Positions 241-12,416 of a stretch of DNA of 12,784 bases are shown here, in pieces. A program made the translations under genes and the position numbers. The notes beneath the pieces were generated by a model. That model was given only the letters and a program-made list of their open reading frames with translations. It ran no database searches and was not told the origin of the DNA. This DNA comes from a bacterium. Lineage in GTDB: Bacteria > CSSED10-310 > JAJRTK01. The DNA lies in the NCBI GenBank assembly GCA_024278345.1, contig JAJRTK010000323.1:1-12784 (forward strand). The letters run 5' to 3'. Every line of letters starts with the position of its first letter. Within the stretch, counting starts at the first letter, position 1.

Positions 241-1785
241 TCAAGCCACGTAGGTAGCGGAATCCTTCTCGCCCCCCTTTAGCCCCCGTACCGAGCCGGG
301 AATGGCTCCCGCTGGCCCCACCGGACCACGCCTGGCTCCTGGACGACCTGGAGGCCCAAACCTCGGATCGCGAATCGCAGCCTGTTCCGCCTCCTGATCC
401 GCCACCTGCTCCAACAACTCCCGGGAAGTCTCAGCATTCTGCCCCTGCTCCGAATCGGAAAAATTCTGGCGGCCTACGACATCCGATCCAACGTCCAGGC
501 GATTCACCTCCAGCCCCTTGGCCTGTAGCGCCTTTTCCAGCTCCTTGACGTTCTCTGTCAGCAGGTTTCTGGCATCTGCAGCATCGGCTGTGAACGACAC
601 ATCCAGCTTGCCATCCTTGCCAACCTTGATGGAAAGCTCAATCCCCTCAAGGCGACCGCTTGACATGGTCAAGCTCATCTCCGCGCCACCCTTCACCGTT
701 GTCCGCAATCGGACATTGCTCACCATATTCTCGACCTTACGGACGATTTCCTTGATTTCCGCCTGACTCATGCGCTGGGTCTGTTGCACACTCTCCGCAC
801 GCTCAACCCGACTCTGGAACTCTACCTGAGAAGGGGGCACAATGTTCGGCTCGACAACCGGAGAAGCCTCCTTGTTCTCCCCAACACCCTGGCCCGAATC
901 TTCAAGCTTGTCCGCTGTCAAAGCTGCATCTGAAACAACATCCCCCACTCTTGGCTGGGCCTCCAAATCGATCTTCCTAGGCCCCAACAAAGGCTTACTG
1001 TGAGCCTGCATACGAAGCTGAGGCATGTTCTTTTTGGCACCCCGCCGGAAACCCGCGGGCAACGGTGCTCCAGGCGATGGGGGCGAAGTCCGGAGAGGCC
1101 GGGCAAACAAAGATCTCTTGCTGGCACGTTGGGCCGACATCGCGGTGCGCAACGCTGCTCGCCGGCCACCTGCCTGCGCCAAGAGTTGCTTGGGCAAAAG
1201 ACCTCGACTTCCCACAGTCCGCGCCATGCCAAGCAGAGGCTTCTTGGGACCCTTTCCAGCAAGCCCCTGATGGAGGACTCCCGGCCTCTTGAACGGCGTG
1301 TCGCCCCGAACGGTGGGCCGAGAAGATCGCGGCAGACGGTGACCGCCTCCACGAATTCCTCGCCCCCCGGACATGGGACCCCGCAGCACCGGGTGCTTGC
1401 TCCGGCCACCAGGCCCCTTTGCTCCCCAACCCTTGACACCAATCCCCTTCCGCCCCACAAGACGACCGCGACGGCCGGCTCGAAGGCGCCTCTTGCCACC
1501 TTCCGAACTCTTTTTCTCTGGCTTATCATCATCGCCACGGCCATCGCGATTCCCTGCACCCTCCCTGGAACCGCGGTCCTGAACCTGGCTGCGGGCCGAT
1601 TGTTGAAGCTGCACGCTCTCAAATGCCGAGGAACCGGACTCCGCCCCCGCTGCGGACTGCTCCGAACCTGTCCTCCCCAGCGAATCCCTGAACTTACTTG
1701 CCGATTCCGGATCGCGAGTCTGCTGCGCCGAGTACGACCGTTGAGTCGTGACCGATGGTGACTGTGAAGCTGATACTTTCGTCAT
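241..1785 (-). CDS. sctP: SctP/FliK-like needle-length (ruler) and substrate-switch protein
   Basis: 514 aa. Residues about 340-433 look like the FliK/SctP C-terminal substrate-switch domain: a beta-rich segment (SLTMSSGRLEGIELSIKVG), then an amphipathic helix (NVKELEKALQAKGLEV) and a final strand. In the family this domain contacts the SctU export gate and switches secretion from rod/needle to later substrates. Upstream is a Ser/Gln-rich N-terminus (1-95) and an unusual Arg/Gly/Lys-rich stretch (97-271). A Pro/Gly-rich tail follows (about 465-505). It is the last gene of the minus-strand run, 22 nt after sctO, with GGGGGCGA upstream of the ATG as a plausible ribosome site. Position after an FliJ-like gene supports the call, since fliJ-fliK are adjacent in flagellar operons. 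Length is above the usual SctP size, mainly because of the basic insert. The C-terminal domain assignment is fairly secure; a ruler function for the basic region is inferred. Confidence 0.8.
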   Translation of the reverse strand: MTKVSASQSPSVTTQRSYSAQQTRDPESASKFRDSLGRTGSEQSAAGAESGSSAFESVQLQQSARSQVQDRGSREGAGNRDGRGDDDKPEKKSSEGGKRRLRAGRRGRLVGRKGIGVKGWGAKGPGGRSKHPVLRGPMSGGRGIRGGGHRLPRSSRPTVRGDTPFKRPGVLHQGLAGKGPKKPLLGMARTVGSRGLLPKQLLAQAGGRRAALRTAMSAQRASKRSLFARPLRTSPPSPGAPLPAGFRRGAKKNMPQLRMQAHSKPLLGPRKIDLEAQPRVGDVVSDAALTADKLEDSGQGVGENKEASPVVEPNIVPPSQVEFQSRVERAESVQQTQRMSQAEIKEIVRKVENMVSNVRLRTTVKGGAEMSLTMSSGRLEGIELSIKVGKDGKLDVSFTADAADARNLLTENVKELEKALQAKGLEVNRLDVGSDVVGRQNFSDSEQGQNAETSRELLEQVADQEAEQAAIRDPRFGPPGRPGARRGPVGPAGAIPGSVRGLKGGEKDSATYVA

Positions 1786-1807
1786 CTGAAATCGCCCCCA
1801 AAGCGTT

Positions 1808-2302
1808 CTAACGATTTTTGTTAAACATGAAGATCGTTTGGGCGACGTCTTCCGCTGTCAGTTCTTGCTTGCGCTGGATCTCTTTCTTCGCCTGGATCTC
1901 CCACTTCTCCCGGTGCTTCTCCAACGCCTTGAGCTCCTTAGACTTCTCCAAGAGCACTTCCCGTGCCGCATCGACTTCCAGTTGCTGCCGCACCACCGCC
2001 TGCTTTTGGGCTACAATGAGATCATCCATCGCCCGGATTTCTTCCGCCATCCGATCAAGAAAACGGTACTCTTCTTGGATGGTCTGAACGGTCATCTTAC
2101 CCTGGCGCATCTCCTGAGTGAGCTCATCCCGCCTCGCTAAACGAGCTTGGATCTTCTGCCGCTTCTCCTCTTTGAGCTCCTCAAGTTTCTTCTCTTCCCT
2201 CGAAAGCTTCTTCTGCTCCAAGACCATTTGGTCTTGCGCTTCTCTTTCCGCTCTCTCGCGCATATCCAAAAGCGTCTGGAGTCGATACTTGGGGAGTCGC
2301 AT
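1808..2302 (-). CDS. sctO: SctO/FliJ-like stalk protein
   Basis: 164 aa, almost entirely charged coiled coil (Glu/Lys/Arg/Gln heptads from about residue 10 to 145). It opens with KYRLQTLLDMRERAEREAQ, the characteristic FliJ start, where a Tyr/Phe-x-Leu-Gln-x-Leu-Leu-Asp segment leads into the first helix. In the family, two antiparallel helices insert into the central pore of the SctN hexamer, like the gamma subunit of F1-ATPase, and link it to the SctV export gate. The ATG at 2302 is preceded by AGGAG at a good distance. It is separated from sctN by about 500 nt, has a sigma-28-like promoter 154 nt upstream, and is followed by sctP after 22 nt, so sctO-sctP is probably its own transcription unit. 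Length and composition fit the family well. Confidence 0.85.
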   Translation of the reverse strand: MRLPKYRLQTLLDMRERAEREAQDQMVLEQKKLSREEKKLEELKEEKRQKIQARLARRDELTQEMRQGKMTVQTIQEEYRFLDRMAEEIRAMDDLIVAQKQAVVRQQLEVDAAREVLLEKSKELKALEKHREKWEIQAKKEIQRKQELTAEDVAQTIFMFNKNR

Positions 2303-2456
2303 CTTGCAGTCTCCTAACTTGCAGGCTCAATCTCACGCTACCCGGGGAACCCGTCAGATTCCGGCGATTCTATTGTCTGCTCCACCATCACCGAAGCGGC
2401 AGCACAAGTACACTGCCTGTGCAAACCTGACCGACATCCCAACCCCATCATTCCAC

Positions 2457-2485
2457 ATTATCGGCATCTTTCGGAAAAGAGTGCG
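2457..2485 (-). promoter_or_regulatory. Sigma-28-like promoter upstream of sctO-sctP
   Basis: Read on the minus strand, the -10 element is GCCGATAA, an exact match to the enterobacterial FliA consensus. CGCACT begins 22 nt before CGATAAT. The same spacing and a similar -35 (CGCAAC) occur upstream of the two related small genes at 10047 and 11540. The sctO ATG is 154 nt downstream. A cognate sigma factor gene lies in the same window. Confidence 0.55.
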
Positions 2486-2601
2486 CATTCACGCCACCCC
2501 ACCCTACATCGAAGCTTTAATCCCCGCCCGGTCTCCCTTGGAATCTCAGTTGCGGAACGCCTTCAGGGCATAAATCCCAAGAATCTCCTGCTCTTCTTAT
2601 G

Positions 2602-2648
2602 GTTGCGGTCCGCTCCCGTCGGCGGCAGTCCGTCCGCCGCCGTCCGCC
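2602..2648 (+). repeat. 47-nt dispersed repeat, copy 2
   Basis: Reverse-complement partner of 127-173 (42 of 47 identical, ungapped), with the same GGCGGCAGTCCGTCCGCC palindromic core. It lies 156 nt beyond the sctN stop. With copy 1 it forms an inverted pair about 2.4 kb apart that encloses sctO, sctP and their promoter. Confidence 0.7.
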
Positions 2649-2803
2649 TCTCATCGCCCTGGATACAGGCTTTGAGCCGAAAAAACATGCCAGAGCCCAA
2701 ATCTCTCAAGACCGCCCCTACATGGCGTCGAACCAAGAAACGACGAATCGGCCTTCCCTCCGCCAAAGAAGCCAGAAAACCCCGAAGGCGGAGCACTACC
2801 GCC

Positions 2804-4150
2804 TCATTCCTCAAACATGTCGATGAGACGCTGGACCGATTCCTCGAAGATCGGCTTCTCGTGAAGACCCTGTTTGAGGTAGGTTTCCACCTCCTCGATC
2901 TTGTCGATGGCGTGATCGACCTTCGGATCATTACCATACTCGTATGCACCAAGCATGATGAGATCCCGGTTCTTCTCATACGTCGATAGAACCTCCCGAA
3001 GGTTGCCAGCAGCCTTCTTGTGCTCGGAAGTGGCAATAGAGTTCATCACCCGAGACAAGCTGGGGGGCACATCGATGGCCGGCCAGTGGTTTCTGGCCCC
3101 GAGCGCACGGTCGAGGATGATATGGCCATCAAGGATCCCTCGAACCTCATCGGCAATGGGCTCGTCCATATCCCCTCCAGCAACAAGAACGGTATAAAGG
3201 GCTGTGATGGAGCTGATATGGTTATTGCCAGTCCTTTCGAGTACCGAGGGAAGCATCGCAAAAACAGACGGCGGGTAGCCTTGGCGGGCTGGGGGCTCGC
3301 CCGTAGCAAGGCCGATCTCCCGCTGGGCACGGGCAAGGCGCGTAGTGGAGTCCATCAAGAAAAGGACCTTGACTCCCTGGTCACGAAACCACTCCGCGAT
3401 AGCCGTCGCAACAAAGCAGGCTTTGAGGCGCTCCAAAGAAGGGCGATCCGACGTGGCACAAACCACCACGGATCGAGCCATCCCTTCAGCTCCCAGAGAC
3501 TCGTGTACGAAATCCATCACCTCGCGGCCCCGCTCGCCCACCAAACAGACCACACACATTTCGGCTCCGCAATTACGAGTGATCTGCCCCATGAGGGTAG
3601 ACTTGCCCACACCACTCCCTGCAAACAACCCTACCCGCTGCCCCTCTCCCACGGTAAGCAACCCATCGATCGCCCGAATCCCTATGGGCATCGGCTCCGC
3701 AATCGGCTTGCGGGTAGTGGGATCTGGCGGAAAACGGTCTACGGGCCACTCCATCAAATCGAGCTGGTCCCAATCCTCCATGGTGTAGCCTTCGGCAGGA
3801 AGCATCGGTTCACCCAAGCCATTCAAAACCCAACCCCGAAGAGCTTCGCCAACCCGAATCGAAAACGGCTTGCCCGTAGGCCGAACTTCCGAATCAAGGC
3901 CCAACCCCTCCGGAGGCCCAAAAGGCATGAGCAAAGCTTGATCGTCCTTGAATCCTACCACTTCCGCAACCAGCGGCCGTGTCCGGTGATGACTCCAGAT
4001 CTCGACGACTTCCCCCATTCGCACACCGGGAACTGCCGCCTTGATGATCAGCCCAACAATCTCCGTCACCCGCCCCTTCACCTTCACTGGGGAGAGCGCC
4101 TCGAGGTTGTCGAGATACTTCAGAATGTTAATCGAGTTCGCATGTCCCAT
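2804..4150 (-). CDS. sctN: T3SS ATPase SctN (FliI/YscN family)
   Basis: 448 aa, full length for the family. Visible motifs: Walker A GSGVGKST (about 178-185), the GERGRE segment (205-210) bearing the catalytic Glu, Walker B VLFLMDS (262-268), and the run DSTTRLARAQREIGLATGEP, which is typical of FliI/SctN rather than F1 or Rho. The alpha/beta ATPase signature PAIDVPPSLSRVM is at about 357-369. The enzyme forms a hexamer at the cytoplasmic face of the export gate, hydrolyses ATP, and releases substrates from chaperones. The ATG at 4150 lies 6 nt after the sctL stop, so translation is probably coupled, and SctL is its known regulator. All catalytic residues appear intact. Flagellar FliI is the alternative, but neighbours (lipoprotein SctJ, SctI) place it in a T3SS. 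Confidence 0.95.
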   Translation of the reverse strand: MGHANSINILKYLDNLEALSPVKVKGRVTEIVGLIIKAAVPGVRMGEVVEIWSHHRTRPLVAEVVGFKDDQALLMPFGPPEGLGLDSEVRPTGKPFSIRVGEALRGWVLNGLGEPMLPAEGYTMEDWDQLDLMEWPVDRFPPDPTTRKPIAEPMPIGIRAIDGLLTVGEGQRVGLFAGSGVGKSTLMGQITRNCGAEMCVVCLVGERGREVMDFVHESLGAEGMARSVVVCATSDRPSLERLKACFVATAIAEWFRDQGVKVLFLMDSTTRLARAQREIGLATGEPPARQGYPPSVFAMLPSVLERTGNNHISSITALYTVLVAGGDMDEPIADEVRGILDGHIILDRALGARNHWPAIDVPPSLSRVMNSIATSEHKKAAGNLREVLSTYEKNRDLIMLGAYEYGNDPKVDHAIDKIEEVETYLKQGLHEKPIFEESVQRLIDMFEE

Positions 4151-4156
4151 TTCGTC

Positions 4157-4810
4157 TTATCCGACGTCCCTTCCAAGAAGAATCTGAGTGATCTGCTCCA
4201 ACTGAGTCTCGAGTTGGGCATCGATGGTCCCAATCTCAGTTTCGATCACGCAGCCCCCTCGCTTGATCGACGGGTCACCCCGAAGATCAATGTCTTTCGC
4301 CCTGCCAAGCCGTGCGATGAGCTGCGGCTTTGCAATCTCGAGATTCTTGAGGTCGGTGGGATGAACCCGAACGTTGATGTCCCGCTGCTGGCGAACCGTC
4401 TCCAAGGCACTTCCCACAATGTGGGCGATCTCGTCTTGGTTGTGGTCCAACTCGTGCCCGACAATTTTTTCCGCAACGCGAAGGGCGAGCTTGATGAGCT
4501 GAGGCTCGGTCTCTCGAACCAGCTTGTCCCGTAACTCTCTAGCCTCTACCAAAAGCCGAGTCGCCTGCTCGGCTCCCTCCTCGTATCCTCTCCTCCGAGC
4601 TTCCTCCATTGCCGCATGATACTCCTGTTTCGCCCGAGCTCGAATGGCATTGGCGTCACGCTCGGCCTCCGCAATGATCTGGCTAGCACGACCTCGAGCG
4701 TCATAGACTTCACTGTCGATGATGCGCTCCGGTCGTCCACGAGAACCCCTTGGAACCCGAGGCGGCCCCCCCGAAGAACTCGGGATGTTCCCTTTCAATA
4801 TCTTGGCCAT
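4157..4810 (-). CDS. sctL: SctL/FliH-like ATPase regulator (stator)
   Basis: 217 aa. A flexible Gly/Pro/Arg N-terminus (about 1-30) is followed by a long Ala/Glu/Arg helix (about 35-110, including RRRGYEEGAEQA), then a folded C-terminal domain. The latter has the FliH/SctL landmarks VRVHPTDLKNLE and GGCVIETEIGTIDAQLETQL near the end. SctL dimers bind SctN and tether it to the cytoplasmic sorting platform or C-ring (SctQ); the fold is related to the F-ATPase b and delta subunits. GGGAGAAG stands just upstream of the ATG at 4810. The gene sits between the FliG-like gene and sctN, as fliH sits between fliG and fliI. Family membership is secure; the partner SctQ is not encoded in this window. Confidence 0.9.
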   Translation of the reverse strand: MAKILKGNIPSSSGGPPRVPRGSRGRPERIIDSEVYDARGRASQIIAEAERDANAIRARAKQEYHAAMEEARRRGYEEGAEQATRLLVEARELRDKLVRETEPQLIKLALRVAEKIVGHELDHNQDEIAHIVGSALETVRQQRDINVRVHPTDLKNLEIAKPQLIARLGRAKDIDLRGDPSIKRGGCVIETEIGTIDAQLETQLEQITQILLGRDVG

Positions 4811-4866
4811 GCAGCTTCTCCCGCTGATGACTTGTCCGGCACCGTCAAGGCGCCGGCGCCACCACT

Positions 4867-5880
4867 CTATGCTTCACCATGGAAGCGAAGCAAAAAATTA
4901 CATTCTTTCCATTTCGGATCGATCCTGCCCGAGGCAGCGAGCTTGTACACGCAAGCTACGATGAAATCTTGTAGCTTCAACCTCTGTTTCCTATCGAGAG
5001 GCGGCTGGTTCTCGAACTCCCTCAAATAAGCAAAAAGCATCTTTCCAAGCTCTCTATCCAGCTTGTAGCAGATGTGAGCCCCCATTTTGGGGTGCTCTGG
5101 CGCCAAACATTCTGACAGCTTCATCAAACCGGCTTCCTTGAAAAGCCAACCTTCCCTTGTACTGGCAATCTCCAACGTAAGAATGCTCTTTTGCGCCCGT
5201 TTTACGTCCTCCGGACTCATCTCATCAAGGCCCCGGACGGCCTCTAAAAGCAATCGCTCGTCTCGCGCCGGCATCCGCTTACAGAGCTTTTGCAAAGCAC
5301 GGGGATCAACCCCCTGAAATGCCACGGCAAAAAGTCTTAACCCGACCTCCCGCACAAGAGTCTGGAGATCCTGCCCGTCGAGGTTTGAAATGCTGCGAAA
5401 CATGAAGTTTCTCGACTCATCCCCCCCGCCAACGGCCTCAAACTGCCTCAAAAAAATGCGGAGCAAAAGTCTGGCCATCCGAGGAACCAAAGGTTCGAGC
5501 TTTGGCAGACGAAGCAGTAGCCCTTTGGGAAGGTAGGCCGTCAGCCCAACCTTGATAAGGTCGGGAAGGGCATCAAGAATCCTCGCGATGATGTGAGGAG
5601 GTTCGCGCTGAAGAAGCTCCGCAAGCCACTCGGTGTGAATCGTCGATAGAAGATCTTCGGACGATTCACTGGAAATGAGCGACTCGAGCTCGCTGGTGAC
5701 GACCGTTGCTAATCTGTCGTCGGGCAGCGAAGCGAAGCGCTCTGTCTCCTCTGCCAACAGAACGGCATCGGGCTCAGGCAAATACTGGTAAAGAGCTGTC
5801 GCCTGCTCCGGGGAGACAAGGAGAGCCAACGCCATGAGCGTAGCATCCTTGTCCCCTAACCTTGGCGATAAATTCTGCAA
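4867..5880 (-). CDS. FliG-like protein in the SctK position
   Basis: 337 aa. Residues about 13-65 resemble the FliG N-terminal domain (MALALLVSPEQATALYQYL). REPPHIIARILDALP (92-106) resembles the FliG middle-domain EHPQ region. Residues about 161-236 align without gaps to the FliG C-terminal domain (LQTLVREVG...AFQGVD...KRM...AQKSIL). The spacing is compressed and about 100 residues follow with no flagellar counterpart, so total length resembles FliG but the architecture differs. FliG joins FliF to the switch ring and makes torque; most of its charged torque positions are substituted here. In an injectisome this slot is held by SctK, which binds the sorting platform. The start is TTG at 5880, with AGGGGG 6 nt upstream and no in-frame ATG before residue 16. 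An sctL gene follows at 56 nt. A platform adaptor role is inferred from position; FliG homology is judged by eye. Confidence 0.72.
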   Translation of the reverse strand: MQNLSPRLGDKDATLMALALLVSPEQATALYQYLPEPDAVLLAEETERFASLPDDRLATVVTSELESLISSESSEDLLSTIHTEWLAELLQREPPHIIARILDALPDLIKVGLTAYLPKGLLLRLPKLEPLVPRMARLLLRIFLRQFEAVGGGDESRNFMFRSISNLDGQDLQTLVREVGLRLFAVAFQGVDPRALQKLCKRMPARDERLLLEAVRGLDEMSPEDVKRAQKSILTLEIASTREGWLFKEAGLMKLSECLAPEHPKMGAHICYKLDRELGKMLFAYLREFENQPPLDRKQRLKLQDFIVACVYKLAASGRIDPKWKECNFLLRFHGEA

Positions 5881-6000
5881 GGAGACCCCCTGAAGGAAAA
5901 GCTGGAACAGTGGGTAACCGGACTTCTCGCATCAAACTCGGTCACCGAACCGGCTAGGCTTCATGATCACCCAAACGACGAGGCGAGCTTCCCTGCCACA

Positions 6001-6954
6001 CTAACTTTTTCGCCGCTTCTGGAGGGCGGCGAGTTTTCTTTTGAGCGTCGCCGCCTGGAAGAACGCGACAAACCACAACACAAGGAGTATTAAAACGACC
6101 ACTCCCAAAACAGCACCACCAATCACGACTCCCCGGTAGGAGTCACGAGCAATCTTGAAGGTGCCAAGGGAAACCAACTCCGTATTGTCGGCCAATTTTT
6201 CTTTGTAGGTTTCCTTACACTGCTCAAAACTCATCCCGGTTGCTCCGACGGAACCATCACCGGCGGCGGCTTCCACCACGAACGGAGAAATGGGCTTGGA
6301 AACGACAGTGATGTCGTCCATCCCCTGAAGCCCTTCAACGGCACGCCAAACCAATTGTTTGATCTCGAGATCGCTGTAGGGTTTCTTGTCCTTGGCATCG
6401 GGGATGTACTTTAACAGGATGGATGCCGTCGGCCGAGGTGCTCTGTTGGTACCGTCCTTGGAATCATCCCGAAGGACATCTTCCTCGGGCAAGACGACGT
6501 GAACATGCGCATCGACCACACCGTCGATAGCCTCCAACGTCATCTCTAACTCACCGGTCATCGCGTGAAGAAACTTTGCCTTTTCTTCATACTGCCCGGG
6601 GATGAGCCCGCCAGGCGGGTAGACAGCCTCGATACCATGCCCTGGCTTCCTTGGCAGCCCGTACAAGTCGAGGACCTGAAATGCGGCGCCAAGGCGCTCT
6701 TTCTCCACAAGCACCTTCCAGGTGGGATTCCGATCCGATGGCTCTAGCTCTTTTTCCGCCGAGATGCCCGCCGCATTCAAACGGACGATGAACTCGTTGG
6801 CCTCTTTCTCCGACAGCTTGTGGTACAGCCCCCCCTTACTACACCCGATGACCGCGAAAAGAAGCCCCAGACAGAGCAAACGAGGCCCGCCACCAAAGAC
6901 CTGCCTCTTCACTCCACCATTACCATTCAGTTCTCGCGCCATCACCGCTAGCAC
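6001..6954 (-). CDS. sctJ: SctJ inner-membrane ring lipoprotein (YscJ/FliF family)
   Basis: About 317 aa. A signal peptide with hydrophobic core LLCLGLLFAV ends in lipobox VIGC (Cys38), so the mature N-terminus should be lipidated. Ring-building domain 1 (about 42-110) starts YHKLSEKEANEFIVRLNAAG. Domain 2 (about 145-245) contains VDAHVHVVLPEED and ASILLKYIPD. A single transmembrane helix (about 275-299) and a basic tail close the protein. FliF has two membrane helices and is far longer, so this is the injectisome form. SctJ builds the inner ring of the basal body with SctD. GTG at 6954 is preferred because GAGG lies 6 nt before it; ATG at 6942 would shorten the protein by four residues with a poorly placed ribosome site. 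A gap of 120 nt separates it from the FliG-like gene. A long MITE-bearing intergenic region lies upstream. Confidence 0.9.
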   Translation of the reverse strand: MLAVMARELNGNGGVKRQVFGGGPRLLCLGLLFAVIGCSKGGLYHKLSEKEANEFIVRLNAAGISAEKELEPSDRNPTWKVLVEKERLGAAFQVLDLYGLPRKPGHGIEAVYPPGGLIPGQYEEKAKFLHAMTGELEMTLEAIDGVVDAHVHVVLPEEDVLRDDSKDGTNRAPRPTASILLKYIPDAKDKKPYSDLEIKQLVWRAVEGLQGMDDITVVSKPISPFVVEAAAGDGSVGATGMSFEQCKETYKEKLADNTELVSLGTFKIARDSYRGVVIGGAVLGVVVLILLVLWFVAFFQAATLKRKLAALQKRRKS

Positions 6955-7044
6955 TACTCACCTCGCTCCCAGTTCGTTTGGTTGTTCCGAATTAGCACTC
7001 CGCAAACCCAAGATACCATTGACTACAGAGCTATGCACGTTCTC

Positions 7045-7211
7045 GTAAAATCGGGACCTATCAAACCCGGTTTACAACTTCAGCGTTGTGGGGAGGCTCC
7101 TCTCTTGTCCGTGAAGCCCGTACGGCGCACAGGCAAGATGCCTGTGCGCACGGTTTTGGCGGGAAGAATTGTAAAGCAGAAACACGACGATTTGATAGGT
7201 CCCGTAAAATC
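7045..7211. mobile_element. MITE-like element (151 bp) with 8-bp target duplication
   Basis: The element spans 7053-7203 and is bounded by 13-bp perfect terminal inverted repeats, GGGACCTATCAAA (7053-7065) and TTTGATAGGTCCC (7191-7203). Direct repeats of GTAAAATC flank it exactly (7045-7052 and 7204-7211), as expected for a target-site duplication. The centre has a perfect 11-bp hairpin, GCGCACAGGCA-AGA-TGCCTGTGCGC (7125-7149). Subterminal TTTACAA is also inverted. There is no transposase frame, so it would be non-autonomous. The parent transposase family is not identified. It sits between sctI and sctJ. Confidence 0.72.
7125..7149. repeat. Perfect 11-bp palindrome ACAGGCA...TGCCTGT
   Basis: The arms GCGCACAGGCA and TGCCTGTGCGC pair perfectly around a 3-nt loop. 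Motifs of this kind are, from memory, dispersed in many copies in planctomycete, verrucomicrobial and some other genomes, often translated as RTGILPV or QDACAP-type spurious peptides. Here it lies at the centre of the MITE-like element. Confidence 0.65.
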
Positions 7212-7324
7212 AAACCTACGGGTTCCATCCGGGAAACAGCTATATCGAACCAGCCAGAACGACAGCAAGACCCCCCACACTCGGTAAGGAGTCTTGTCGA
7301 TCTGGAGTCCCATGTCGATGTTGA

Positions 7325-7792
7325 TTATACCTGCGTCGACATCGTCTTCTTGACGCCATCTGTCGTCTTTTCGACAATCTTCGTCACCATCTCCAGCTCA
7401 TGGGTGTACCGATACATTCCCGTCTGCATTGCCATGAGCTCCTGGGGACTGAACTTTTTTCCACTGGTGGCCATTTGCATGATTTTATCCATCTTGCTCT
7501 GACCCTTCACCACGTTGGTGATCAGCTTTTGCATCGAACTCTTCTGAGTCTCTTTGATGCGGGTACGAGCCTGGACGCGCTCCTGGGCCGCTTGAAACTT
7601 CTGGCGGGCCTGCACTTGTGTAGCTGCCTGGGGCGGCTGCTGCCGCGTTTGCATGACTTTCTGAAATTCGGAAATCCGATTGGCTTGCTTAGTGACGGGC
7701 TTTTGGATCTGACGCTGGACAACCTGTTGATTTGCTTGGTGCTTAACCGCTTGGCTGGCGGCTGCTCCAACTCCGGAAATCGGCAATGCCAT
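7325..7792 (-). CDS. sctI: SctI inner-rod protein (YscI family)
   Basis: 155 aa. The C-terminal third, from SPQELMAMQTGMYRYTHELE to the end (KKTMSTQV), has the YscI/PrgJ-type pattern: Met-x-Met-Gln, a Tyr and acidic segment, then a Val/Ile/Lys-rich helix ending near a terminal Gln. This helix forms the rod that connects the basal body to the needle. The N-terminal two thirds (about 10-105) are Gln/Lys/Ala/Arg-rich and probably extended or coiled, making the protein longer than the usual 80-120 aa. AGGAGGT stands 8 nt before the ATG, the strongest ribosome site on this strand. It follows the sigma-factor gene by 73 nt and precedes sctJ, as fliE precedes fliF. FliE is a distant alternative, but the C-terminus fits SctI better. 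Confidence 0.78.
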   Translation of the reverse strand: MALPISGVGAAASQAVKHQANQQVVQRQIQKPVTKQANRISEFQKVMQTRQQPPQAATQVQARQKFQAAQERVQARTRIKETQKSSMQKLITNVVKGQSKMDKIMQMATSGKKFSPQELMAMQTGMYRYTHELEMVTKIVEKTTDGVKKTMSTQV

Positions 7793-7865
7793 AATAGTTA
7801 CCTCCTGTCATTCGAACCGGTGAACTCGTGACGACGTAAAAAACTCGTTTAGCGGACTGGCTGAT

Positions 7866-8621
7866 CTACTTATCGGCTCTTTGGCTCTTTTTGTTTCGTC
7901 GATGAATCTGCTCTGGCACCTCGGTCCCCAGTTTCTTGGCTACCAGACGTTGAAGTTCTCGGACTGCGCGAGAATGGAGGCGAGACGCCCAAGACTTGGA
8001 CAACCCCATTTTGTCGCTGACCTCCTGGAGAGTTAAATCTTTGAAATAGTACATCTTGATGACGGTTTTTTCCTGTTGGGGTAGCTCCTCTATTGCCTCG
8101 AGCACGGCGGCACGGCTCTCCCCCATCTCGCACGCGGCTGCGGGACTCGGCTCCCGTTCGTCTTCAATCTGCAAGGCCTCGGCCGTCTCAATAGACGTGA
8201 TGAAGATAGGAACCAATCCCGCCACGGTTTGCGTCAACGCCACAACCTCGGCGTCAATGGAACTTCCACCAAGAGGAGGGCTGCTTCCTGAGAGAGTCGA
8301 CAGATAGTGATTGGCCGCCTCCTGAAACTTCTGGCGTGCATACTGAGAGCGAGAAAGCCAACCCATCTCCCGCAGACCATCGTAAATCGCCCCTCGAATC
8401 CGGTAATAAGCAAAAGTCTTGAAGTTCGCCCCCACCTTGGGATCGAATCGGTCTGCCGCTTCTATCAGGCCAATTTCCCCATGCAAAACAAGATCTTCGT
8501 AGTCGATGTGAGAGGCTACCGTTTTTCTGATTTTCGATGCGATGGAACGTACGTAGGGCCGGTATTGCTCAACGAGTTGGTTCCTTGCCTTCAGATCTGG
8601 CGCACGACTCGCCATCCGCAT
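7866..8621 (-). CDS. FliA/WhiG-type (sigma-28 class) sigma factor
   Basis: 251 aa from the ATG at 8621 (GGGAG 5 nt before); an upstream TTG at 8645 would add 8 residues. Region 2 (about 12-92) contains DLVLHGEIGLIEAADRFDP and FKTFAYYRIRGAIYDGLREM, the FliA-type core-binding and -10 recognition segment. Region 4 (about 170-230) carries the -35 helix-turn-helix LTLQEVSDKMGLSKSWASRL. Region 3 (about 93-169) is poorly conserved and Ser/Pro/Gly-interrupted compared with FliA. Sigma factors of this class direct RNA polymerase to TAAA-N15-GCCGATAA promoters. Close variants of that sequence occur before four genes or units in this window, so a regulatory link to the T3SS is likely. No anti-sigma factor (FlgM-like) was recognised. 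It heads the unit with sctI. Confidence 0.9.
   Translation of the reverse strand: MRMASRAPDLKARNQLVEQYRPYVRSIASKIRKTVASHIDYEDLVLHGEIGLIEAADRFDPKVGANFKTFAYYRIRGAIYDGLREMGWLSRSQYARQKFQEAANHYLSTLSGSSPPLGGSSIDAEVVALTQTVAGLVPIFITSIETAEALQIEDEREPSPAAACEMGESRAAVLEAIEELPQQEKTVIKMYYFKDLTLQEVSDKMGLSKSWASRLHSRAVRELQRLVAKKLGTEVPEQIHRRNKKSQRADK
7870..7897 (-). promoter_or_regulatory. Possible sigma-28-like promoter for sctI
   Basis: Within the last codons of the sigma gene, the minus strand reads GCCGATAA, preceded 16 nt upstream by GAAA. This resembles FliA promoters, and the sctI ATG is 77 nt downstream. The -10 is encoded by Ala-Asp-Lys codons, so chance is possible. The -35 does not match the CGCAAC seen at the other sites. 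Confidence 0.35.
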
Positions 8622-9550
8622 CGTTTCTCCCTTCGGCCCAACCAATAAGGGTTTCCCGCCAATCCCCCCCGAGCACCTGGTCCCATCAAGAGCGCCCCCA
8701 GCCTGTCCAGCCTCTAAGGAATTAGCGCCTCCAAATGTAACACGGCACGGCCCTTAGATCGCCATGGCACAAAACCGACGGGCGATATCTTTCCACCCTT
8801 CTAAATGCCTGACGCCATTTCTCCGGCTTCGGCAAAACAACCCACCATTGGCCATTTTCGACTTCATTTCCACCCATTCCCTCTCCACTCCCCCATCCGA
8901 TCAAGGTCGCAAGGTAGAATATCCGAAAAAAAAAGAATACACTAGGGCAGGCTGACGCTCAACTTGGAAATCTTCCGCCGTTTATTGACAAAACCGGTCC
9001 AAAATGGCTGTCGCTCGTCAAGGTCGTCTTCCACCCACATCAGCAGGATCCCGTGGACATTCGTCACCCTGCATACCCAAGAACTGGGCGTCCATGCGGG
9101 CTTTAAAGGTCCCGACTGTTTGCGCCGGAAATCTCATTACGGACCTGCCGCATGGCCTGATCCTCCGTCTCCGCCGGCGTCCTCATGTACGGCCAGCCTC
9201 GACGGGTCGCACGGCTGCTCCTGGAGGTGTCCTCTCCCCGCCATTGGTGAGAACAGGCCCGGCTGCCTCGCTTCAATCCATGGCGAGAGTTCCCGTATTG
9301 TGGGCTAGCTAAGAGAATCCCGACTACACTGCAACCGAAGGATTTCTTCACGGTCGTCTCATCGCCTGGCAACTCGCTGCCCGATTTCGCGGGAATGACG
9401 GAGGGTAAGGAATCCCACCAAACCCCGGTCTTTCCCTCCTTGACACCAATGCGACGCTCTTGCTAAGAATGGCGGGAGTAGCCTGTTGGGCCAAGCCTGC
9501 CCGCCGACGACCAAAAAAAATCCCAGCCTGAGTTCAGGAGGAAGCAACGT
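8622..9550. other. Long divergent intergenic region
   Basis: About 930 nt separate the minus-strand sigma gene from the first plus-strand gene. Open frames of 100-125 codons occur on both strands, but they are Arg/Ser/Pro-rich, overlap each other, and lack ribosome sites or recognisable domains. Visible features are a poly-A run (about 8925-8936) and a sigma-70-like promoter close to the next gene. No remnant of a recognisable gene was found. Regulatory RNA or DNA-binding sites cannot be excluded. Confidence 0.5.
9440..9469 (+). promoter_or_regulatory. Possible sigma-70-type promoter for the 9551 gene
   Basis: TTGACA (9440-9445) is followed after 18 nt by TAAGAA (9464-9469). The predicted start would give a leader of about 75 nt. 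No sigma-28-like box is seen before this gene, so it may be expressed from a housekeeping promoter. The -10 is weak. Confidence 0.3.
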
Positions 9551-9874
9551 ATGATGATGGGAAACAAAGGCACGTTCAGTGCGGGGAGCATGGCGCAGGG
9601 ACCAAGAGGGCCGCGACGGCCCATGGCTCGACAAACAAGCTCCTCGACCTCTTTGGGGTATCCGACCATCGAAGGGCTTCTTGAAACGGAGGACTTTTCG
9701 AAACTTGAGGAAGGGTTCGAAGATATCCAATCCCAAGTTGCGGGGATCATTTCAGAAAAGACAGCTTCGGCGCGAACTAAACGTCGAGCCAAGCTAGCGC
9801 TCGGGGCTTTTGAAACAGCCCTCGATCTCATTAAAGAGCTTCTTGAGATCAAGGAGCAGATAAGGAGGGGGTGA
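9551..9874 (+). CDS. Small helical protein, possible SctE-like co-chaperone
   Basis: 107 aa, family not recognised. AGGAGG stands 7-8 nt before the first ATG, a strong ribosome site, which supports a real gene. The N-terminal 35 residues are Gly/Arg/Ser-rich and likely disordered. Residues about 38-105 appear helical, with charged segments (EDFSKLEEGFEDIQSQV and ALGAFETALDLIKELLEIKE). It is the first gene of the plus-strand group and precedes a needle-like candidate and a TPR gene. That order recalls yscE-yscF-yscG, in which a small helical protein and a TPR protein jointly chaperone the needle subunit. The SctE idea rests only on position and helical character; it could equally be a secreted substrate or an unrelated chaperone. 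Confidence 0.6.
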   Translation: MMMGNKGTFSAGSMAQGPRGPRRPMARQTSSSTSLGYPTIEGLLETEDFSKLEEGFEDIQSQVAGIISEKTASARTKRRAKLALGAFETALDLIKELLEIKEQIRRG

Positions 9875-9933: not shown

Positions 9934-10046
9934 GGAGATTGGATGGAACGAGCGGACAGGCTCTTCAGTCTGCCGCGAAGGTCCGATCGAATTTTGGCAA
10001 TCCGAGTTTTGTTTTTGCAAGAAGGCTTTCCCAGGAGGTCATCGAG

Positions 10047-10448
10047 ATGCCCCAGAGAATTTCGTCGAAAGGTCCGAAGCCATTTAACTATAACACTGTC
10101 ATGGGCGGTTCCACCGCCAAGACAAGCCGAGGCGGCAAATTTGGGGCCGCGCTAGGGGCAACAACCCGCAAGGCTGCGGTTGGCGGTGCTAGCGGAGTAC
10201 CCGGGAGTACCGTTCTTAACAGTGTCCTGGGACAAAGCAAGCCAGGCAAGGTGGGGAGCACGGCGACTGGCCAGGCTGGCGGAGCCCTGATGGGTGCCGA
10301 CCTCGTCCAGATGAACATGAAAATGAACATGCAGTTTATCAGCCTGCAAAATTCCATGCAGATGGAGTCACGCCAATTCCAGGCCGTCTCCAACGCTCTT
10401 AAGGTGCGGCATGACTCGGCAATGTCCGCCGTGAGGAATATGAAGTAA
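10047..10448 (+). CDS. Candidate T3SS needle/secreted subunit (paralogue 1)
   Basis: 133 aa. The start is ATG 10047, because AGGAGG lies 8 nt before it; an in-frame TTG at 9939 has no ribosome site. The N-terminal part (about 10-90) is Gly/Ala/Ser/Thr-rich. The last 40 residues are helical and amphipathic and match the product of the 11540 gene at 20 of 40 positions (shared LQN, SRQ, SNAL, RN-x-K). Needle proteins (SctF) also end in a helix with a conserved aromatic/Asn and terminal Asn-basic pattern, but are about 80 aa and lack a long Gly-rich part. The gene has a sigma-28-like promoter and is closed by a strong terminator, so it is a single-gene unit. Being next to a TPR gene is consistent with a chaperoned substrate. 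Secretion and needle identity are inferred; no family was firmly recognised. Confidence 0.65.
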   Translation: MPQRISSKGPKPFNYNTVMGGSTAKTSRGGKFGAALGATTRKAAVGGASGVPGSTVLNSVLGQSKPGKVGSTATGQAGGALMGADLVQMNMKMNMQFISLQNSMQMESRQFQAVSNALKVRHDSAMSAVRNMK

Positions 10449-10559: not shown

Positions 10560-10976
10560 ATGAGCAAGGTCGCTGAACCGATCGTCAACGTATCGACCGA
10601 AAACGTCATTTTCTTAATGGAGGCTGGTTACATCTACCTCAATATGGGCCGCTTCAGAGAAGCCAAGGAGGTCTTCGAAGGGGTCGTGGAAATGCGCCCT
10701 GACAGTGATGTCCCCAGGGTCGCCCTCGGGAACGTCTTTCACTCGCAAGGACGGTTCCAGGATTCGGCAAGAATCCATCGGGAAACCTTGAAGCTAATGC
10801 CACAGAGTGCTCGGGCTTACGCCGGTCTCGCGGAGTGCCTGATCTTCCAGAAGAAGACCGAACAAGCTCTTGAAGCCCTCAACAAAGCCATCGAATACGA
10901 TCCTGACGGTGATGTCGCTCACTATGCCAGGACTCTGATCGACGCCATCGACACCAAAGTCTTCGAAGCTCTTTGA
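10560..10976 (+). CDS. TPR protein, probable T3SS chaperone (SctG/LcrH-like)
   Basis: 138 aa. Three tandem tetratricopeptide repeats are visible at about 15-48, 49-82 and 83-116, each with the Gly/Ala and Pro landmarks (YIYLNMGRFREAKEVFEGVV; NVFHSQGRFQDSARIHRETL; AECLIFQKKTEQALEALNKA). A short C-terminal helix follows. There is no signal peptide, so it should act in the cytoplasm. T3SS chaperones of this size and fold include the needle chaperone SctG (YscG/PscG) and the translocator chaperones (LcrH/SycD class). The gene lies between two related candidate substrates, which suits a chaperone for one or both. GAGGG stands 6 nt before the ATG. The TPR fold is secure; the T3SS class and substrate are inferred, and a general TPR adaptor remains possible. 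Confidence 0.8.
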   Translation: MSKVAEPIVNVSTENVIFLMEAGYIYLNMGRFREAKEVFEGVVEMRPDSDVPRVALGNVFHSQGRFQDSARIHRETLKLMPQSARAYAGLAECLIFQKKTEQALEALNKAIEYDPDGDVAHYARTLIDAIDTKVFEAL

Positions 10977-11539: not shown

Positions 11540-11953
11540 ATGAACATCGACAACGCGCTGCGCGGTAAGATGCAGTACAATTCCCAGCTCGCTGGTGCCT
11601 CTCGGGGCTCGCAGCAGGCCCTCAGCACCCAGCGAACCAAGAAGAAATCTTTTGCTCAAAAGCTCGGCGGTTTCGCCAAGGGCATTGCCCAAGTTGGACT
11701 GAGCGTAGCTGGTAGCGCTATTCCTGGCGGAAATATCATCAGCAGCGCCATTTCCTCGGCGATGGGCGGAACAGGGGGTAGCGCGGCTTCGGGACTCGGG
11801 GGAGACATGATGAGCCAAATGGCGAGCCAGAACATGGCCTTCCTGGCACTCCAGAACAACATTCAGCAGCAGTCCAGGCAGTACCAGACGATTTCCAACG
11901 CGTTGACGGCAAGCCATCAGGCAGCGTCAAACTCTATCCGGAACCTGAAATAG
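11540..11953 (+). CDS. Candidate T3SS needle/secreted subunit (paralogue 2)
   Basis: 137 aa. AGGAGG lies 7 nt before the ATG. A basic N-terminus (to about residue 40) leads into a hydrophobic Gly/Ala/Ile/Ser segment (about 43-90: GFAKGIAQVGLSVAGSAIPG and on), which could insert in a membrane or pack in a filament. The last 40 residues form the helical module shared with the 10047 product (FLALQN, SRQYQ, SNAL, final RNLK). The hydrophobic region also recalls small translocators. The two related genes may encode major and minor subunits or subunits used at different stages. A duplicated promoter and a similar leader (CTTTC-N-CAGGAGGT at the ribosome site) suggest both gene and regulation were duplicated. 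It is followed at 82 nt by the 12036 gene, without a terminator. Needle identity is inferred. Confidence 0.65.
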   Translation: MNIDNALRGKMQYNSQLAGASRGSQQALSTQRTKKKSFAQKLGGFAKGIAQVGLSVAGSAIPGGNIISSAISSAMGGTGGSAASGLGGDMMSQMASQNMAFLALQNNIQQQSRQYQTISNALTASHQAASNSIRNLK

Positions 11954-12035: not shown

Positions 12036-12416
12036 ATGAAGATCTCATCGAAAAAAACCCGCTCCTTGTCCATGCCCATCCGGGTTCCTGCTTCTGGTTC
12101 CAAGGGGAAAGTGTTTTCCCTTCGGACAAATCAGCAGGCGGTGGTGCGCCCGCAAGCACAAGCGGCCACGGGCAAGACACAAACCATTGCATCTGCCGAA
12201 ATGAAGGCAATTGCCTCTGGCTTTCGGAGCGGCAAAATACCAAGCCGCCATGAAGCGATCCAGAAGATGGTGGGAACAATGCTTCAGCGGCAGTACGGTT
12301 CTAAGCTCACTCAAGCCCCTGGTTACGCGAATGTTCAAGCCGCCATCAGTGACTTGATCGCGGGAGATCCGGCGCTCTCCCAGCGCATGGAGAATCTACT
12401 CAAGCAGCTAGCCTGA
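12036..12416 (+). CDS. Small basic protein with a C-terminal helical domain, unknown function
   Basis: 126 aa. The N-terminal 50 residues are basic and low in complexity (Ser/Lys/Arg, then Gln/Ala). Residues about 52-125 look like a compact helical domain: IASGFRSGKIPSRHEAIQKM, then a variable loop, then AAISDLIAGDPALSQRMENL. This layout (a short GKI-x-(S/T)-x-x-EA helix pair followed by a D-P-x-L helix) resembles a small domain I recall at the C-terminus of assorted myxobacterial and other proteins, but I cannot name a family. The start ATG has only GGGCG upstream. The gene ends the plus-strand group, 82 nt after the 11540 gene and just before a strong terminator, so it is probably co-transcribed and part of the same system. 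It could be a chaperone, a regulator or a secreted substrate. Confidence 0.6.
   Translation: MKISSKKTRSLSMPIRVPASGSKGKVFSLRTNQQAVVRPQAQAATGKTQTIASAEMKAIASGFRSGKIPSRHEAIQKMVGTMLQRQYGSKLTQAPGYANVQAAISDLIAGDPALSQRMENLLKQLA

Follow-up and report, generated by a model that had tools for sequence, protein, structure and literature searches.

A FliG homologue in the sctJ-sctL slot of a Myxococcota-type non-flagellar type III secretion gene cluster

The non-flagellar type III secretion systems (NF-T3SS) of Myxococcota were placed by Abby & Rocha in 2012 on a basal 'Myxo' branch and were described as being without FliG, SctF and secretin (PMC3459982). One of them, the T3SS* of Myxococcus xanthus, is used in predation and prey lysis (PMC10433427, PMC12075869), and has been called 'needle-less' in reviews and in a 2025 study, in which FliG is not mentioned (PMC10433427, PMC10849154, PMC12075869). 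FliO, likewise a flagellar component that these Myxococcota systems have kept, was reported there in 2025, again with no mention of FliG (PMC12403147). No report of FliG together with T3SS* systems was found in the open-access literature, the primary T3SS* paper lying outside that set. Here we describe a cluster of this type whose sctJ-sctL slot is occupied by a gene for a FliG homologue, referred to as T3-FliG. The window analysed is an entire contig (C251; 12,784 bases) of the source genome G000 (6.06 Mb, 88% complete), which belongs to a small phylum different from that of the described Myxo-family systems and represented in our sample by seven other genomes.

Genes were called with Pfam and NCBIfam profiles at their curated cut-offs, and the fliEFGHIJK region of E. 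coli K-12 was the reference for gene order. Read 5' to 3', the minus strand carries sctI-sctJ-fliG-sctL-sctN-sctO-sctP, corresponding gene for gene to fliE-F-G-H-I-J-K. The inner-rod protein SctI, in the FliE slot (7325-7792), matched NF038054 (3.1e-5) and PF17001 (1.4e-4) below their cut-offs, its position being conserved. It is followed by the inner-ring lipoprotein SctJ in the FliF slot (6001-6954; 317 amino acids), the FliG homologue (4867-5880; 337 amino acids, TTG start; PF01706 3.5e-15, PF14841 6.5e-6), the SctL/FliH stator (4157-4810; PF02108 3.3e-24, TIGR02499 above its cut-off), the export ATPase SctN (2804-4150; TIGR02546 1.7e-174, and the trees given below), the SctO/FliJ stalk (1808-2302; PF16789 5.6e-20) and the SctP/FliK length-control protein (241-1785; PF02120 1.3e-10). 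A chance arrangement is excluded by these E-values and by the identical order in relatives. An earlier note on this DNA had named the same seven genes in the same order, as found here; the block that it located at 4867-8621 is indeed present, but its true extent is from 241 to 7792, or to 8645 with the sigma factor gene at its head. This last gene (7866-8645, minus strand) encodes a FliA/WhiG-like, sigma-28-like factor and had been counted as a second flagellar trait; it scores below the FliA cut-off (TIGR02479, 3.6e-44) and belongs to the usual gene set of such clusters, taking the same head position in relatives including M. xanthus, and adds little.

SctJ is of the injectisome type, matching TIGR02544 at 4e-42 versus only 1e-8 for the FliF profile TIGR00206; it has a lipobox ending in VIGC, whose cysteine is conserved in the alignment of SctJ relatives, a C-terminal transmembrane helix and a short basic tail. 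Bases 1-203 of the window are bases 203-1 of another contig of the same genome, C489, at 99.5% identity, an end-to-end overlap in opposite orientation, and the cluster therefore very probably runs on into C489, with sctQ following sctP directly. C489 encodes a FliM-type SctQ (L274, 489-1844; PF02154 1.7e-14) with a forkhead-associated (FHA) domain (PF00498 8.8e-17), a FliN-type protein (PF01052 6.4e-19), FliO (PF04347 1.2e-8), SctR, SctT and SctU, with room for SctS, while SctV is located on contig C241. In this SctQ the FHA domain is an insertion that separates the FliM-like part from the SpoA region at the C-terminus; a separate FliN-like gene comes next. The combined run across both contigs follows the order fliEFGHIJK-M-N-O-P-(Q)-R-flhB. 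A gene order like that of flagella is in itself nothing unusual, because rhizobial and Hrp2 injectisomes have sctJ-(SctK/NolU/HrpB4)-sctL-sctN; in the window, the slot of the classical SctK holds FliG.

Identity and residues of the FliG homologue

The 337-residue protein is a true FliG homologue, composed of FliG_M and FliG_C domains with a reduced N-domain and an extra helical extension at the C-terminus. Both domains passed their cut-offs (FliG_C PF01706, 56.6 bits against 23.3; FliG_M PF14841, 26.7 bits against 25), and the full FliG equivalog TIGR00207 was not reached (27.6 bits against 226.7); T3-FliG is a divergent subfamily and not an ordinary flagellar FliG. Its profile matches E. coli FliG at 3.6e-12 and FliGs of Firmicutes down to 3e-22, and profile-profile alignment with hhalign against 84 flagellar FliGs gave 99.2% probability (E 1.1e-19, 244 columns), five unrelated T3SS families used as negative controls giving at most 0.7%. 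When all PDB sequences were searched with the profile, the 14 significant matches were all FliG, the best at 3.3e-17. A structure model was made from the window protein and six relatives, flagellar FliG being kept out of the alignment, and the first 16 matches of a Foldseek/VIA search among 350,542 PDB chains were all FliG (Z ~10; FliG_C superposed over 87 residues at 3.0 A). That a system with an SctJ lipoprotein has FliG in the ancestral slot, as the earlier note proposed, is thus borne out by Pfam, profile-profile and PDB matches, and the note's profile test of the 4867-5880 product yielded a clear FliG match. A superficial likeness, the protein being instead an armadillo/MgtE_N-like helical-repeat protein, could be suggested by a weak MgtE_N match (0.0013) and by the folds that FliG and MgtE have in common; with MgtE scoring far lower than FliG in the sequence and fold searches, and the gene lying exactly in the slot of fliG, we regard it as extremely improbable.

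The proteins that hold this slot in injectisomes, SctK (YscK/OrgA/NolU/HrpB4), are not detectably related in sequence to either T3-FliG or FliG. Homology of T3-FliG to SctK was considered and rejected at the level of profiles, since hhalign probabilities against the rhizobial SctK, NolU and HrpB4 sets were 2.1% or lower, no better than the negative controls. PscK was not among the PDB fold or sequence matches of T3-FliG, a result that would still be compatible with kinship between T3-FliG and SctK.

T3-FliG shares with flagellar FliG the FliG_M and FliG_C domains, the fold, the gene slot and the glutamate that contacts FliM, and differs from it in the loss of torque charges and hinge, the reduced N-domain, the additional C-terminal domain and the lack of an accompanying flagellum. 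Torque positions (E. coli K264, R281, D288, D289 and R297) were scored in 25 flagellar FliGs and 23 T3-FliGs. On average 4.84 of the five charges are kept in the former and 0.52 in the latter, the window protein keeping two, and the region of the GG hinge (192-198) is a gap in the T3-FliG alignment. In the FliM-binding motif EHPQR, E125 is conserved in all 23 T3-FliGs and P127 in 18 of them, whereas H and Q are lost, the window protein reading EPPH-I. SctQ is FliM-type in all 13 genomes searched, 12 of them above the cut-off, a count that includes the flagellar FliM of flagellated genomes, and FliO was present in all T3SS* clusters tested. Because the torque residues are lost, T3-FliG is FliG-like in descent and position and not a motor part. 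That the FliG/FliM ring might still rotate through a MotAB-like stator, for instance to pump or to drill, could be argued from the presence of the FliG_C fold. M. xanthus, moreover, has stator-like gliding motors. The family-wide loss of almost all five torque charges and the gap at the hinge disfavour such a rotation, which appears very unlikely.

Distribution and relationships of the cluster

T3-FliG was found with a three-sequence profile (best E at or below 6e-20) in about 114 of the 195 genomes of a Myxococcota-like phylum, that of genome G035, which we equate with Myxococcota since its loci cluster with records bearing that name. In a broad sample T3-FliG occurred in 8 of 290 genomes, from several families not belonging to that phylum. 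The scores of flagellar FliGs against the T3-FliG profile are far lower, and their match spans only about 100 positions, so that the two kinds are easily separated; several genomes carry both. In nearly all loci the T3-FliG gene adjoins sctJ, and where sctL is close by, it always immediately precedes sctL. Named relatives, gathered by a SctN search, are those among the matches listed. In M. xanthus AM003 (L097) the order is sigma-sctI-sctJ-T3FliG-sctL-sctN-sctO-sctP-sctQ, and its T3-FliG, located between sctJ and sctL, has 720 amino acids (E 4e-101; FliG_C 28.4 bits against a cut-off of 23.3). The M. xanthus T3SS* (MXAN_2434-2464, the long locus of the Myxococcales NF-T3SS 'Myxo' family) has the same genes in the same order as the window. 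The two are also alike in lacking a T3SS-type secretin and in their basal position among NF-T3SS: no match to the secretin profile TIGR02516 above its cut-off was obtained in G000, at 88% completeness, or in nine other genomes, which gave only lower-scoring secretins.

In a careful, unrooted SctN tree of 47 rows, the T3SS* clade (support 90/86) stands between classical NF-T3SS with Chlamydia-like systems (separated at 96/92) and Margulisbacteria with flagella (separated at 100/99). The window SctN lies within a group of 13 rows at 100/100, together with Myxococcota NF-T3SS, and a quick tree with F1-ATPase as outgroup recovered a clade of NF-T3SS and T3SS* at 99. This position agrees with the basal 'Myxo' branch (PMC3459982). 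In the T3-FliG tree the T3-FliGs come together, apart from flagellar FliGs including those of G003 and G436/G439, with one very divergent short row left unplaced. Long branches dominate the tree of SctR, SctT and SctU, which was used only as support that the export gate of G000 is non-flagellar. Hence the SctN phylogeny does not nest the system deep inside a known T3SS family of unrelated gene order, and of the suggestion that it is an early-branching or intermediate form one part holds, its SctN clade adjoining all sampled classical and chlamydial injectisomes, while the other does not: there is no lone intermediate, and the cluster is a member of the known Myxococcota-type NF-T3SS (T3SS*) family, in which FliG is general.

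The source bacterium has no detectable flagellum. Flagellar rod proteins (Flg_bb_rod, PF00460) gave no match in G000 with positive controls, and none either in G035, G134, G138, G275, G424 and G443, all with T3-FliG and with working controls; for G000 alone, the absence of a flagellum has to be read with the caveat that 12% of the genome is missing. G000 has a single FlhA/SctV-type gene and one FliM-type SctQ, and no FliG other than the window protein was found in it. A second FliG_C match in this genome was examined as a flagellar FliG and proved to be MgtE. Some other T3SS* genomes (G003, G243, G436, G477, G478) have a flagellum in addition. A decaying flagellum would account for the flagellar gene order and for the FliG, FliO and FliM-type genes, but this is refuted by the lipoprotein type of SctJ, the grouping of SctN with NF-T3SS, the missing rod genes and the conservation of the cluster in more than 100 genomes, with a function in the lysis of prey by M. 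xanthus (PMC10433427, PMC12075869).

Several loci depart from this general picture. The T3-FliGs of Myxococcaceae (L012:8889-11087, L097:7115-9277) carry a Pro/Ala-rich tail of about 400 amino acids with repeated motifs (GSAVSAMPRPE in L012). In L081, L082, L083 and L086-L089, pairs of SctJ and FliG stand apart from other recognised T3SS genes, with SctJ frames of up to 553 amino acids, and the rest of the T3SS is probably scattered at these seven loci. L221, in G002 of the source phylum, is an NF-T3SS of a second kind, which lacks FliG and contains sctL, a SctF-like gene, a tetratricopeptide repeat (TPR) gene, sctI, sctJ, sctN, sctQ, sctR and sctT; its SctN forms a long branch. L106-L109, from Margulisbacteria and one other bacterium, combine a FliF-like protein with a very short FliG (173-191 amino acids), resembling in L107 a FliF-FliG fusion frame; their SctN/FliI adjoins flagella in the tree, and they represent another odd T3SS or a reduced flagellum.

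SctF-like proteins and other plus-strand genes

The plus strand of the window carries, besides the gene of a TPR chaperone, several small genes that are conserved. Two of them (9939-10448 and its paralogue 11540-11953) encode proteins that end in a needle-type, SctF-like helix, shared with a 74-residue protein of C489 (G000:C489:6694-6918), and the family was detected in 10 of 10 T3SS* genomes searched. The only significant PDB match of its profile was 7y6c_F, from an entry of a T3SS needle protein with co-chaperone (E 3.1e-6). Weak matches to PF09392 (6/15 members) and TIGR02105 (3/15) were also obtained; PF09392 alone is not diagnostic, since control genomes that are unrelated also give matches to it at E<=1; the basis of the SctF assignment is the PDB match of the family profile. 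In the window, the two copies flank the gene of the TPR chaperone, of SycD/SctY/CdsG type (10560-10976; TIGR02552 1.3e-10, NF052415 1.3e-8, NF052304 2.5e-7, all below cut-off). M. xanthus AM003 also has a SctF-like protein (L097:3387-3953), and several copies per genome occur beside TPR chaperones. Not all of them need be needles, because several larger proteins, such as one of 717 residues in G000:C275, carry the same C-terminal helix; these are perhaps secreted substrates.

A 107-residue protein encoded beside the first SctF-like gene (9551-9874), with homologues in L011, L074, L076, L077 and L085, is a possible needle co-chaperone. Another small conserved protein (12036-12416) has homologues in L011, L012, L078, L097, L099, L101 and L102, and in relatives its gene lies upstream of that for the sigma factor. 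An Rfam search of the window gave no matches. Two dispersed non-coding repeats were noted, one of 57 bp (118-173 and 2602-2658, also in C489 and partly in C426) and one of about 155 bp (7050-7203, with two copies on C241).

Role and descent of FliG in the T3SS*

The window encodes the cytosolic and inner-ring half of a Myxococcota-type NF-T3SS, and the arrangement described here is probably best explained if this system is of flagellum-type descent, with FliG acting as an adaptor that does not rotate and joins the SctJ ring to a C-ring of FliM type. The N-terminal part of the FliG homologue would dock on the SctJ ring from the cytosolic side and its middle domain, through the EHPQ region, would bind the FliM-type SctQ. 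Below the export gate it would thereby keep in place both the FliM/FliN-type C-ring and the ATPase complex of SctL, SctN and SctO. The FliG homologue would not turn, since the charged residues for contact with the MotA stator are gone and flagellar rod genes are missing. FliG would then do in the T3SS* the job of SctK, the holder of the slot in classical injectisomes, for which a FliG-like role has been proposed, in a listing as 'FliG (?)' (PMC4045390). Several observations weigh against this explanation: FliG_N yields only a faint signal (0.012 in L011), SctJ has short tails, so that a FliF-style docking to FliG_N is predicted only, sctJ is not directly adjacent to the T3-FliG gene in some relatives (L076, L077), the monophyly of T3SS* is only moderately supported in the SctN tree, and the quality of the structure model is modest (pLDDT 62.8, pTM 0.28).

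The descent proposed implies that FliG was retained and not regained. A flagellar fliG could instead have entered an injectisome that had lost its own and taken over from SctK the place between sctJ and sctL, donors being at hand in the flagellated T3SS* genomes and the T3-FliG branch being long. However, T3-FliG is one divergent family across several phyla and does not group with the flagellar FliG of its hosts, and the flanking order is flagellar on both sides (E-F-G-H-I-J-K-M-N-O-P-R-flhB types), FliO and the FliM-type SctQ having been kept too; re-acquisition thus seems unlikely. A broader proposal, less likely than not, is that FliG was never lost in the injectisome line, that SctK is a FliG worn beyond recognition, and that the T3SS* is the intermediate, with a torque-less FliG and a FliM-type C-ring, and has a real SctF-type needle or filament, in which case the label 'needle-less' would be mistaken. 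Within it, the descent of SctK from FliG is a hypothesis that sequence comparison does not support.

The published description of Myxo systems as lacking FliG and SctF needs revision, both FliG and SctF-like proteins having been found here in a family described as having neither FliG nor needle. FliG has so far been taken as specific to flagella, and its absence from the basal 'Myxo' systems has been part of the argument on the origin of injectisomes. If the explanation preferred here, an adaptor retained from a flagellum-type ancestor, is true, the torque residues and the rod and hook genes would have been lost before the switch scaffold on the path from motility. Moreover, the evolutionary link between flagellum and injectisome, and with it the question of the origin of SctK, becomes testable in M. 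xanthus, a predator that is harmless and easy to work with, where a concrete component of the T3SS* prey-lysis machine can now be named.

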